In this document: positions 20,216 through 25,339 of the stretch, one piece after another
Layout: each line of letters begins with the position of its first letter
Position numbering within the stretch: position 1 is the first letter of the stretch
Assembly: GCA_024693545.1 (NCBI GenBank)
Contig: JAILKT010000024.1
Location: 1 to 38,885, forward strand
Source of the DNA: Lachnospiraceae bacterium
GTDB taxonomy: Bacteria; Bacillota; Clostridia; Lachnospirales; Lachnospiraceae
Direction of reading: 5' to 3'
DNA: 38,885 nt
Notes under the pieces: generated by a model
Told to the model about the DNA's origin: nothing
The model's database searches: none
Seen by the model: the letters and a program-made list of their open reading frames with translations, nothing else
Program-made: the position numbers and the translations under genes

Positions 20216-21391
20216 TCACTTTGTCTGACCGTACTTCTCAAGGATCTTGTGAATGCGGTCCGTGGGATCGAGGAATTCGCTGATCGAGAAGTCGTGATTG
20301 AGAGTATCAATGAGGAGAGCGATATATTTGCTCATGTCCGCGCTGATGTAATACTCTTTTTCAAGAAGCTCGGGAGTCTGATAGATAAGATTTGTGGTCA
20401 CAACCTTATCGAATACATGCTCTTCGTATGCCTTATCAAATCTTTCGAGACCGTCGGTGAAGAGGCCGAAGGTAGCACAACAGAATATCCGCTCTGCACC
20501 GCGTTTCCTGAGTTCTCTCGCAACCTCAAGAATACTGTCGCCGGAGGAGATCATGTCATCGAGAATGACAACGTCTTTTCCTTTGAGATCGGATCCAAGA
20601 TATTCGTGAGCGACTATCGGGTTACGACCGTTCTCGACTCTGGTATAATCTCTTCTCTTATAGAACATTCCGATATCAAGTCCGAGAACGTTTCCAAAGT
20701 AGATTGAACGTCCCATAGCACCTTCGTCGGGGCTGACAACAAGCATTTTGTCGGATTTGAAGCGAATATCGGGTACATTGCGTAAGAGAGCTTTTATAAA
20801 CTGGTAAGTGGGCTTGATCGTTTCAAAGGTTTTAAGAGGTATAGCATTCTGAACCTTGGGTTCATGTGCGTCGAAAGTGATAACGCTGTCAACGCCCATG
20901 CTGTAAAGTTCTTCGAGAGCCATCGCACAGTCAAGAGATTCTCTGGTTGTACGCTTGTCCTGACGGCTTTCGTAAAGGTAGGGCATTATCACGGTAATAC
21001 GGCGTGCTTTTCCGCCGACAGCACCGATAATGCGTTTGAGATCCTGAAAATGGTCGTCGGGAGACATATGATTTTTGTGACCTCTTACTGTATATTCAAT
21101 ACTGTAATTGGTTACATCAACGAGAATGTAAAGATCATAACCTCTGACCGATTCGTTGATGACGCCTTTGCCTTCACCTGTTCCGAATCTCGGACACTGA
21201 GATTTTACAAGGAAAGTGTCGCGCTGATAGCCTGAAAAAGCGATAGATGAAGTATGTTCATTATCGCGGCTGTTACGCCAGTCAACAAGGTAATTGTTTA
21301 CCCGCTGACCGAGCTCACTGCTACTGTTTAGAGCTATAACTCCCAATTTACCTACCGGAATTGTTTCAAGAAAGACATCTTGTTGTGACAC
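20216..21391 (-). CDS. prs: ribose-phosphate pyrophosphokinase (long form), GTG start
   Basis: RRITVIMPYLYESRQDKRTTRESLDCAMALEEL; DVVILDDMISSGDSILEVARELRKRGA PRPP motif; SD aggaggtc. Confidence 0.9.
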   Translation of the reverse strand: MSQQDVFLETIPVGKLGVIALNSSSELGQRVNNYLVDWRNSRDNEHTSSIAFSGYQRDTFLVKSQCPRFGTGEGKGVINESVRGYDLYILVDVTNYSIEYTVRGHKNHMSPDDHFQDLKRIIGAVGGKARRITVIMPYLYESRQDKRTTRESLDCAMALEELYSMGVDSVITFDAHEPKVQNAIPLKTFETIKPTYQFIKALLRNVPDIRFKSDKMLVVSPDEGAMGRSIYFGNVLGLDIGMFYKRRDYTRVENGRNPIVAHEYLGSDLKGKDVVILDDMISSGDSILEVARELRKRGAERIFCCATFGLFTDGLERFDKAYEEHVFDKVVTTNLIYQTPELLEKEYYISADMSKYIALLIDTLNHDFSISEFLDPTDRIHKILEKYGQTK

Positions 21392-21427: not shown

Positions 21428-22414
21428 TCAGGTCTGTCTTCTCAGATCTGTTCCGATGATCTTAAACAGATCGTAATGCTTGCAGATACGCGAATATGTT
21501 CTTTCGGAATAATTAAATACAATCCTGTCAAAAGACAGATTTGTTGATATGATCGTGGACTGTCCGGCAAGCATGCGCGCATTTATTACGTCAAAAAGCG
21601 ATGATGCCGTAAACTGTGTATAAAACTCGCTTCCCAAATCGTCTATGATAAGCAGATCACAGTTATAAATGTATTCTTCGTTTCTTCGTGATACGTCACG
21701 GTCTCCGGTGCCGAAACGTTTGGCTTCGAGTGCACTGAACAGACTTTGTGCGGTATGATAGAGCACCGCATGTGATGTATCTATGAGGGCCTTGGCAATG
21801 CAGGAAGATATAAAGGTCTTGCCGACACCCGCAGGTCCGTATATAAGGATGTTACCGTGTTTTTGGTCGAATTCGTTAACGTAACGCATAGCTTTTTCGT
21901 ATAAGTTAACGATGTTTTCATACGGAGTCTTTCCGAGCGATTCGTCTCTGTCGGCCGGATCGTTTGAAAAAATCGAAGCATCAAATGTTTCAAAGTTCTC
22001 GGTTTCCAACAAATGCTCCATATTTGACTCGGCAAGGAGAATCTTACTGAGCGCTTTTTTAAAGCAACCGCATCGTTCGCCGTCTATATAACCCGTATCC
22101 TTGCAACGTTCGCATTCATAACGGAGCTTAAGATAGTCGGAGGGAAATCCGTTCTCAACAAGAAGCTTTTCTATCCGGGTTTCGAGAGCCTGATTGTCTT
22201 CAGCCATACCATCGAGCGCATTGGGCTCGTTGGCGATCAGAGAACGTTGAGCTCTGTCCAAAGAATCACGTGCAATTTTCAGTTCGAGTTCTCTTACCCC
22301 GGGGGCTTTATCATAGACCTGTGCACGCCTTTCGTCAAGGGCGTAACGCGCGTTTCGTCTTTTTTCGTCATATTGCGCAAGAATATGTTCGATAATGTCG
22401 TTTCTTATATGCAT
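21428..22414 (-). CDS. dnaI: DnaI/DnaC-like helicase loader ATPase
   Basis: ILIYGPAGVGKTFISSCIAKALID Walker A; CDLLIIDDLGSEFYT; four-Cys pattern CERCKDTGYIDGERCGC. Confidence 0.85.
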   Translation of the reverse strand: MHIRNDIIEHILAQYDEKRRNARYALDERRAQVYDKAPGVRELELKIARDSLDRAQRSLIANEPNALDGMAEDNQALETRIEKLLVENGFPSDYLKLRYECERCKDTGYIDGERCGCFKKALSKILLAESNMEHLLETENFETFDASIFSNDPADRDESLGKTPYENIVNLYEKAMRYVNEFDQKHGNILIYGPAGVGKTFISSCIAKALIDTSHAVLYHTAQSLFSALEAKRFGTGDRDVSRRNEEYIYNCDLLIIDDLGSEFYTQFTASSLFDVINARMLAGQSTIISTNLSFDRIVFNYSERTYSRICKHYDLFKIIGTDLRRQT

Positions 22415-22484: not shown

Positions 22485-23615
22485 TTATGAATGCTGATCG
22501 CTCAAGCCGAGTTTTCGTCTCTCGAAGTCGGCGAAGTCCTGATTGCTGTAGTTACGCTGAGGGAAGTTGGTAAAACGTCCTTTGGGAGGATTGTTTGATA
22601 TGTTCTGTTCCTCCGATGCGTTACCGATCGGATGAGTCTGCCTGTACCTGAGGTCGTCTTCTCTAACCGAATCCAGGTCCTTGATCCCCTTCTGACTCCA
22701 GTTCTTAAGGATCGAATCTGCGTATGAGAACTGTTTGCTGCCGGTCCCCTTTGAAACGGATCTGCAGCACGCTTCACGGATCAGTTCTACCGAGAAACCC
22801 GAATCGTGCCAACGGGAGAGATACTCCAGCTCTCCGGAACCGAGGCTCCTTCCGCTGATCCCGAAAGCCTTGATCACCGTTGAGTATTCGGCCGTTCTGG
22901 TGAGAACATGTGAGCGGGCGGAATCAATATCGAAAACGCCGCTTTTCTTCCATTCGATCGCGGTCTTTTCTATATACCGGTCAGACTTCTTATCGTTTTT
23001 TATGCATTGGTCGTAAAGAAACTCAATGAGTTCCGGAGTAAATCCCAGACTTTCAAATAAGAAAGAAGGCAATTGCAGATTCTTTAAAGTCATGATCTTT
23101 CCGAGTTTGCTTTCGAGTGAATCGATGAGATTGCTGAATTCATCAAGCTCCTTGAAACGGGAAATCTGGCTGGGTGTGTAGGTCGGCACCATTATCTCCT
23201 GCTCGTGATCCGAATCGGTGCTTTCGCCGCAAGGCTTGATCCTGGAAATGTTTCTTGCTGCCCTTACAGGAGGTTCGGAAACAGTAAGAACCTTATCTCT
23301 GACGGGGAATCCGTCGGAGTTTTCAATCCTAATGTCTCGAACGTCACCGTCGGCGTCATACGACACGCGTAGAAAGCCCTCTTTCTCCCAGTAACGAAGG
23401 GCTTTGATCACATCGTTTTCAGATTCGCCTACTCTGTTGGACATTTCCTCTACCGTTATGGGCATAGAGGTGTCATGAAGACATCTGATGAGGTAAAGAT
23501 ATACTTTAACAAAAGAACCGTGTGCTGCCGCAAGGCAATTATCTATAAAAAAATCCGAAATGGAGGTAGAGGTCATTGCCTCTTTCCCGCATGATAGATT
23601 TATTCTTCCGTTCAT
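22485..23615 (-). CDS. dnaD: DnaD domain replication initiation protein
   Basis: wHTH-like N-term MSNRVGESENDVIKALRYWEKEGFLRV; DnaD repeats (YLSRWHDSGFSVELIREAC; SYADSILKNWSQKGI); ATG 23615 with upstream SD aggggag. Confidence 0.85.
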   Translation of the reverse strand: MNGRINLSCGKEAMTSTSISDFFIDNCLAAAHGSFVKVYLYLIRCLHDTSMPITVEEMSNRVGESENDVIKALRYWEKEGFLRVSYDADGDVRDIRIENSDGFPVRDKVLTVSEPPVRAARNISRIKPCGESTDSDHEQEIMVPTYTPSQISRFKELDEFSNLIDSLESKLGKIMTLKNLQLPSFLFESLGFTPELIEFLYDQCIKNDKKSDRYIEKTAIEWKKSGVFDIDSARSHVLTRTAEYSTVIKAFGISGRSLGSGELEYLSRWHDSGFSVELIREACCRSVSKGTGSKQFSYADSILKNWSQKGIKDLDSVREDDLRYRQTHPIGNASEEQNISNNPPKGRFTNFPQRNYSNQDFADFERRKLGLSDQHS

Positions 23616-23699
23616 ACCGGTCGCTCCCCTTATCATACGACACTGCCGCAAGGAAAACCATTATTGTCACCAGATGAATTTCCCCTTCGACGTGAGACG

Positions 23700-23727
23700 A
23701 TTATAGCATAACGGTCATGGATATCAA
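23700..23727 (-). promoter_or_regulatory. predicted sigma-A promoter of dnaD-dnaI-prs
   Basis: TTGATA-N16-TATAAT on minus strand. Confidence 0.7.
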
Positions 23728-23763
23728 TCGAAAAAAAAACATAAAACAGATGTCGAAAAGGAT

Positions 23764-23874
23764 TGTGGACAATGTGGAAATTTAAACCCGTCCGGAGCAC
23801 GAAACGCAGATGGATGAAGGGGTTTCGAGAACAGGGCGGGTTGTTTAAAAAAATATTGTGGATAAAGTGGATAA
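23764..23874. promoter_or_regulatory. putative DnaA-box cluster
   Basis: TGTGGACAA+TGTGGAAAT (23764-23781) and TGTGGATAA+AGTGGATAA (23857-23874), same orientation. Confidence 0.6.
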
Positions 23875-23875
23875 G

Positions 23876-25339
23876 TCAATGACCGAGGAGATGGTCCGCA
23901 ATAATGTCAACGTCTCCGGCACCCATAGTTATTAACATATCACCTGTGGAACAATTTTCGAGACAAAAATCTTCGATTTCTCCAAAGGACGGAAAATGGT
24001 AAGCTTCCTTACCGTATTTTTCTTTGAGAATTTTGACCAGATCACCCGGGGTAATTCCGAAGGTGTTGACCTCTCTCGCAGCATAAAAATCGGTTATGAC
24101 GATAAGGTCCGCCCCGCTCAGTGCTTTACACATTTCTTCCTTAAACATGGCTGTTCTTGAATAGGTATGGGACTGGAATATAATGACAAGTCTTTTCGGA
24201 GACAGACTCTTTGCCGTTTTAATGGTGGCTTCCATTTCCGTGGGGTGGTGGGCGTAATCGTCGATGATCGTTACGCCGCCGATCTCACCCTTCTTTTCAA
24301 AACGCCTGTGGGTACCGCGATAACGGAAGAGGCCGCTCTTGATCGCTTCAAAGGGAATACCGCTTTCGAGGGCAAGAGCCGCAACTCCGACCGAATTGGT
24401 AATGTTGTGTGCTCCGGGTACGCCAAGCTCGATCATTCCTATGGGCGAAGTACCCTTGTAAAGAGTGTAAGAGCCGCATCCGGAACTGTTGTAGCTTACA
24501 GCCTCGGCATGATAATCGGGAAGGGAGGTCTCAAAGGTCGCTGCAGAGGCGGGAGAAGCTTTTGATGTATCAGAAGACTGCGCGATGTTGCAGACGGAGT
24601 CTGAAAGTTCACCCGCAAATGTGATCATTCTGCAGGAAATGTTTTTGAAGATCTCTGTGCGTTCCTTTATGCAGGCACCGACCGCAAGTAGCCCGTCGGA
24701 TGGGATAAGTTCGGCAAATCTTGAGAAAGATCGCTTTTCGTTATCGAAGTCGCCGAAATAATCAAGATGTTCGGGCTCTATATTGGTTATGATGGCGCGA
24801 GTGGGATGAAATTTGAGAAAACTGTCGGTGTACTCGCAGGCCTCGATACAAAATGTATCGCTGTTTCCGAGACGTGTATTGCCGCCGATTTCGCTTAGGA
24901 TCCCGCCGAGGTTGACGGTAGGATCGAGTCCGGCCTCCAACAGAACAAGGATCATCATTGAAGTCGAGGAGGTTTTGCCATGCGAACCGGCGACGGCATA
25001 ATTGTTTTTATAAGAAAGCATTATGTCACCCACGAGAGAGGCGCGGTCTATAACGGGGATGCCGAGTTCTTTTGCACGAATCAGCTCCGGGCTGTCGGCT
25101 TTAACTGCTGCAGTGTGGACAAGAACGTCTATATCGTCGGTGATGTTGTCGGCTGTCTGAGTGAGGATCACCTTTATGCCGGCCGCTTCAAGAGAGCGTG
25201 TAACATCCGACTCCGAGCGGTCGGAGCCGCTTACGTCAAAACCTTCTTTGCTCAGAAGAAGTGCAAATCCGCTCATGCTTATTCCGCCGATTCCCGAGAA
25301 AAAGACTTTTTTTGGTTTGTTTAGATCAATATATCTCAT
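23876..25339 (-). CDS. murC: UDP-N-acetylmuramate-L-alanine ligase
   Basis: FSGIGGISMSGFALLLSKEGFDVSGSD; VAGSHGKTSSTSM; IIDDYAHHPTEMEATI. Confidence 0.95.
   Translation of the reverse strand: MRYIDLNKPKKVFFSGIGGISMSGFALLLSKEGFDVSGSDRSESDVTRSLEAAGIKVILTQTADNITDDIDVLVHTAAVKADSPELIRAKELGIPVIDRASLVGDIMLSYKNNYAVAGSHGKTSSTSMMILVLLEAGLDPTVNLGGILSEIGGNTRLGNSDTFCIEACEYTDSFLKFHPTRAIITNIEPEHLDYFGDFDNEKRSFSRFAELIPSDGLLAVGACIKERTEIFKNISCRMITFAGELSDSVCNIAQSSDTSKASPASAATFETSLPDYHAEAVSYNSSGCGSYTLYKGTSPIGMIELGVPGAHNITNSVGVAALALESGIPFEAIKSGLFRYRGTHRRFEKKGEIGGVTIIDDYAHHPTEMEATIKTAKSLSPKRLVIIFQSHTYSRTAMFKEEMCKALSGADLIVITDFYAAREVNTFGITPGDLVKILKEKYGKEAYHFPSFGEIEDFCLENCSTGDMLITMGAGDVDIIADHLLGH

Follow-up and report, generated by a model that had tools for sequence, protein, structure and literature searches.

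A family-wide array of tandem DnaA boxes upstream of dnaD in Lachnospiraceae: a probable site of DnaA control over the helicase-loader operon

What may DnaA boxes be doing in front of an operon that encodes helicase-loading proteins? The stretch of DNA that raises this question, referred to below as the window, is 38,885 nt long and makes up a single contig of a Lachnospiraceae draft genome of 2.15 Mb, a metagenome-derived assembly; the close relatives of this genome are metagenome assemblies from rumen or gut. The original prediction, which had noticed boxes between murC and dnaD, offered three answers: DnaA control of the helicase-loader operon, a DnaA titration or reactivation site of the datA/DARS kind, and an auxiliary origin element. 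The genes concerned are all co-directed on the minus strand:

23876..25339, minus strand: murC, the co-directed gene upstream of dnaD
22485..23615, minus strand: gene of a dnaD-type primosomal protein (DnaB_2, PF07261), with its ATG at 23615 and AGGGGAG upstream
21428..22414, minus strand: gene of a dnaC/dnaI-type helicase-loader ATPase (IstB-like)
20216..21391, minus strand: prs, encoding a ribose-phosphate pyrophosphokinase-like (PRPP-synthetase-like) protein

The murC stop is separated from the first start of the dnaD ORF by 225 bp, and the gene order murC–dnaD–dnaC–prs is retained in nearly all the genomes of the genus and of the family that were read. In this gap four 9-mers, all oriented like dnaD, form two abutting pairs with a spacing of 93 bp from the distal to the proximal one; the coordinates originally given for them proved to be correct throughout:

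23857..23874, minus strand: distal DnaA-box pair, TTATCCACT abutting TTATCCACA, 1 bp past the murC stop and at about −164 to −181 from the predicted dnaD +1
23874–23866, minus strand: box TTATCCACT, 1 mismatch to the DnaA box
23865–23857, minus strand: box TTATCCACA, an exact DnaA box
23764..23781, minus strand: proximal DnaA-box pair, ATTTCCACA abutting TTGTCCACA, at about −71 to −88, with 55 bp from its end to the TG of the extended −10
23781–23773, minus strand: box ATTTCCACA, 2 mismatches to the DnaA box
23772–23764, minus strand: box TTGTCCACA, 1 mismatch to the DnaA box
23751..23759, minus strand: TTTTCGACA, perhaps a fifth, weak box (2 mismatches), otherwise a motif of another kind; aligned by eye

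The deviations from the consensus had been put at 1–3 bases; the boxes do deviate, but by 1, 0, 2 and 1 bases, so that the range for the deviating ones is 1–2 and does not reach 3. The TTCGACA motif at 23751–23759, between the proximal pair and the −35, is kept in most of the genus and was unseen in other genera; it is possible that it represents a weak box or the site of another factor.

The genomic background of the boxes was taken from pattern searches. The motif scan that the original prediction had called for yielded 26 occurrences of TTATCCACA in 2.15 Mb versus 2 for the reversed control, which places the array above chance. The tandem 18-mer TTATCCACATTATCCACA, searched with up to 3 mismatches, has seven matches in the window genome, the best of which (1 mismatch) is the distal pair, the proximal pair being one of the matches with 3 mismatches. 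The draft, metagenome-derived nature of the assembly and the confinement of the window to a single contig might suggest chance or an assembly artefact, but the same array is found in independent assemblies of relatives, and we consider the probability of such an origin to be negligible.

The distal pair occupies the same place in relatives of the window genome. For the family as a whole we surveyed 52 Lachnospiraceae murC–dnaD gaps, one per genome, counting boxes at no more than 1 mismatch. At least one box was present in 51 of them, so that the boxes are not lost from relatives that keep the operon, the outcome named beforehand as speaking against a function; an abutting pair was present in 43, and a near-stop and a distal array were found together in 41. 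The boxes running in the dnaD direction numbered 208 versus 16 running against it, while dinucleotide shuffles of the same gaps gave 4.7 forward boxes and not a single gap with an abutting pair. By pattern search, abutting pairs were detected in 39 of 60 family genomes, the control hits amounting to two in total, and several Lachnospiraceae genera possess 3–4 perfect abutting boxes. The proximal pair is not needed in every member of the family: the near-stop array stands alone in L015, L020, L022, L025 and L028, five members whose gaps are short, L035 has just one box and none occurs in L023. At 65 dnaD loci of other families in the class (best hits and a hand-picked spread, not a random sample) there was no co-directed box within 300 bp and no abutting pair within 700 bp, and murC was absent upstream at all 65. 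Because both are absent from these sampled loci, the box array and the murC linkage both appear to be traits of Lachnospiraceae.

To which of the two neighbouring genes the boxes belong can be seen in three members of the genus (G064, G072 and G082; loci L045, L044 and L047) where an intact murC is missing before dnaD. A relic of the murC 3′ end with a broken reading frame is recognisable in the three genomes (E values of 1.6e-7, 4e-4 and 0.007), and the window MurC used as a query found no match below 1e-40 anywhere in them, which would fit a genuine loss of murC as well as a MurC that has diverged; one of the three genomes is 99% complete. In all three the proximal box lies at 64 bp (55 + 9, since the second box has degenerated) and the distal boxes are kept. 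Since the boxes persist before dnaD at the same distance after the decay of murC, the array goes with dnaD, and the boxes as a trait of murC were ruled out.

The relation of the boxes to the dnaD promoter is the second line of evidence. The promoter comprises the following elements:

23722..23727, minus strand: −35 hexamer TTGATA of the dnaD promoter, a consensus match
23700..23708, minus strand: extended −10, TGCTATAAT, with a predicted +1 near 23693
23731..23739, minus strand: T-tract just upstream of the −35, putatively UP-element-like

A TTGATA–N16–TATAAT promoter on the minus strand had been described at this place, and it is there as described (TTGATA at 23727–23722, 16 bp, TATAAT at 23705–23700), with the addition of TGC preceding the −10, which makes the latter an extended one by consensus match. 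From the end of the proximal pair to the TG of the extended −10 the distance amounts to 54–56 bp in all 17 of the 17 genus members with a recognisable pair, and it holds although DnaD identity in this set drops below 40%; the inter-array spacing in the same genomes varies between 65 and 93 bp. The box-to-promoter distance in other genera is 46, 53–57, 64–67 (69 once) or 76–78 bp, with a single outlier of 154 bp, and the four classes form a ladder with steps of about one helical turn. The distance class has changed at least nine times on the DnaD + DnaC + MurC tree. With about one value taken per class change, the phasing test gives R = 0.67 and p = 0.003 at 10.5 bp, or p = 0.008 if the period is left free between 10 and 11 bp, on about 12 partly independent values and with the promoters picked by regular expression. 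The inter-array spacing in other genera has no phase at 10–10.5 bp (p 0.22–0.66) and a weak signal at 11 bp; because it lacks a clear phase at 10.5 bp, the phasing appears to be particular to the promoter, and looping between the two pairs via helical phase was dropped as a model on the same data. The boxes thus stand in a constant relation to the promoter across relatives, as expected of a DnaA-regulated promoter.

The space between the two pairs had been thought to hold a cruciform, around which the boxes would be arranged. The corresponding feature is:

23785..23842, minus strand: imperfect inverted repeat, likely a remnant or variant of the murC terminator

The inverted repeat does exist (arms 23785–23805 and 23822–23842, 76% complementary) and folds weakly better than shuffles (z −1.3), and the window and three close relatives have a separate GC-rich stem between the pairs. 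The hairpin, however, is missing in many relatives: none was found between the pairs in the group of the genus with 65–68-bp spacing, where the boxes are kept, and elsewhere it is replaced by a terminator built from a box. Genera other than this one mostly have a canonical terminator, ATCCACA...TGTGGATTTTTT (z −2.7 to −6.9), whose 5′ arm is the inner distal box. The stem is likely the murC terminator or its remnant rather than the core of a cruciform. The cruciform as the conserved part was rejected on account of this lack of conservation, and the geometry is that of an array of boxes plus a hairpin of poor conservation. The frequent use of the inner distal box as a terminator arm outside the genus, together with a proposal of DnaA-dependent attenuation in the his operon of E. 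coli (PMC10989985), could indicate that DnaA, bound at the end of murC or to the RNA, acts as a terminator factor or roadblock that adjusts the balance between termination after murC and transcription onward into dnaD. We find this improbable, since boxes are kept in the group devoid of the hairpin and outlast murC itself, and since the proximal array and its phasing would be left unexplained.

The dnaA gene of the window genome is located on another contig (C169), and the encoded DnaA keeps RDHAT, the DNA-binding motif of domain IV. In long assemblies the distance between dnaD and dnaA is 239 kb (G035), 139 kb (G005) and 287 kb (G046). With several near-consensus boxes in an intergenic gap away from dnaA, the array has the layout of an extra-oriC cluster of the B. 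subtilis type. The boxes of the dnaA region (loci L085–L090 and L217–L231) are mostly TTATCAACA or similar, whereas the dnaD boxes are mostly TTATCCACA; the former are less canonical and, judging from the consensus, may have a lower affinity. Such a difference in quality, the large number of near-consensus abutting boxes, the location 139–287 kb from dnaA in the three long assemblies and the existence of a second conserved extra-oriC array are all compatible with an origin-proximal sink that delays initiation by binding DnaA, as six such clusters do in B. subtilis (PMC13220808, PMC5295017), the position before dnaD being incidental. A sink, however, needs neither a fixed distance or helical phase to the dnaD −10 nor retention before dnaD once murC is lost, and an incidental position seems to us rather unlikely; titration may be an additional role beside promoter control.

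The notion of an auxiliary replication origin, where DnaA would unwind the DNA, DnaD would be made next door and the helicase would be loaded, can draw on a short AT-rich stretch that follows the abutting boxes. Compared with an oriC, the array neither adjoins dnaA nor is accompanied by an extended AT-rich unwinding element in the window gap. Moreover, dnaA has neighbouring boxes of its own elsewhere, the AT-rich stretches are short and unconserved, the box position tracks the promoter, and the extra-oriC clusters of B. subtilis are not used as origins (PMC11019786). We therefore hold this option of the original prediction to be very improbable.

A second extra-oriC DnaA-box element was observed in Lachnospiraceae (L001:1501–1571, equivalent to G000:C17:3760–3829), often between an NlpC/P60 hydrolase gene and hpf–secA, and also in L092, L097, L101, L103, L120–L127, L129–L131, L134, L138 and L140. 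Its geometry is nearly fixed and independent of the neighbouring genes, with a box at −53, a TTATACACC-like box at −12, an abutting pair at 0 and +9 and sometimes an extra pair at −97/−88 (or −76/−67); it is possibly a datA/DARS-like or titration element. A different cluster, L128 (G016:C132:2000–2500), packs about 25 DnaA boxes, distributed over both strands, into 430 bp; it lies apart from the dnaD locus of that genome and is maybe the oriC of G016.

Family-wide conservation, the fixed and phased distance to the promoter and the retention of the boxes after the loss of murC all argue for the first of the proposed answers: the murC–dnaD gap is probably the control region of the dnaD–dnaC(–prs) operon, with DnaA as the regulator. 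DnaA would load cooperatively onto the abutting 9-bp boxes, and the proximal pair, on a fixed helix face relative to the −10, would bring it into contact with RNA polymerase. A location at about −71 to −88 is typical of class I activators and one from which a bound protein would not be expected simply to block RNA polymerase; DnaA would most likely be a class I-like activator working via the alpha C-terminal domains beside the T-tract. Repression by DnaA from the same helix face is a close alternative, activation being our guess from the position. The distal pair at the murC stop would add sites, leading to a higher occupancy and a sharper response to the DnaA level. By such a mechanism the partners of DnaA in helicase loading, DnaD and the DnaC-type ATPase, would be made in amounts that depend on how abundant or active DnaA is. 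In B. subtilis the cooperative binding of DnaA is inhibited by DnaD (reviewed in PMC5295017), so that a feedback loop could result.

If so, helicase loading may be linked directly to the level of DnaA in a family of bacteria dominant in gut and rumen. The array also bears on how initiation is timed in those Clostridia that are without several of the B. subtilis DnaA regulators; in C. difficile, homologues of YabA and DnaB are reported missing and a DnaD-like protein is relied on (PMC7561715). As a tentative and more doubtful extension, DnaA in Lachnospiraceae might directly set the expression of the helicase-loading partners through the phased tandem-box array and, together with the second element of fixed geometry (upstream of hpf in the window genome), form a family-specific replication-control network whose arrays would fill before the weaker boxes near dnaA.

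Our literature search, which left subscription journals mostly outside, found nothing on DnaA control of dnaD or of any Lachnospiraceae promoter, and for none of the family members did it bring up data on DnaA binding, footprints or expression. DnaA as a regulator and box clusters outside oriC are known; dnaD as a target, conservation throughout a family and the phased geometry were not found described. The nearest known counterparts of the array are the DnaA-box clusters (DBCs) located outside oriC in B. subtilis, at sda, ywlC, ywcI, yydA, trmE and gcp/ydiF (PMC4447404, PMC5295017, PMC13220808), which likewise consist of near-consensus boxes clustered between genes, and some of which regulate the next gene while jointly they delay initiation. 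In contrast to these clusters, among whose listed targets dnaD does not appear, the Lachnospiraceae have two co-directed abutting arrays family-wide, in phase with the promoter that precedes the helicase-loader genes. B. subtilis DnaA is a known activator, at sda, and a known repressor (PMC4447404). The sda promoter, too, has several boxes, and DnaA bound to them is activating; sda, however, encodes a sporulation checkpoint inhibitor and not a part of the replication machinery. The datA, DARS1 and DARS2 loci of E. coli, which are absent in B. subtilis (PMC13220808), are similar in being non-coding DnaA-box clusters at conserved chromosomal loci. What sets them apart is that, together with IHF (and Fis), they alter the nucleotide state of DnaA. 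Class I activators occupy sites such as those of CRP at −61.5, −71.5, −82.5 and −92.5. The array resembles these sites in lying upstream of the −35 with a spacing of whole helical turns, and differs from those of CRP in that an abutting pair of 9-mers would be bound by DnaA as activator, with a putative contact to RNA polymerase.
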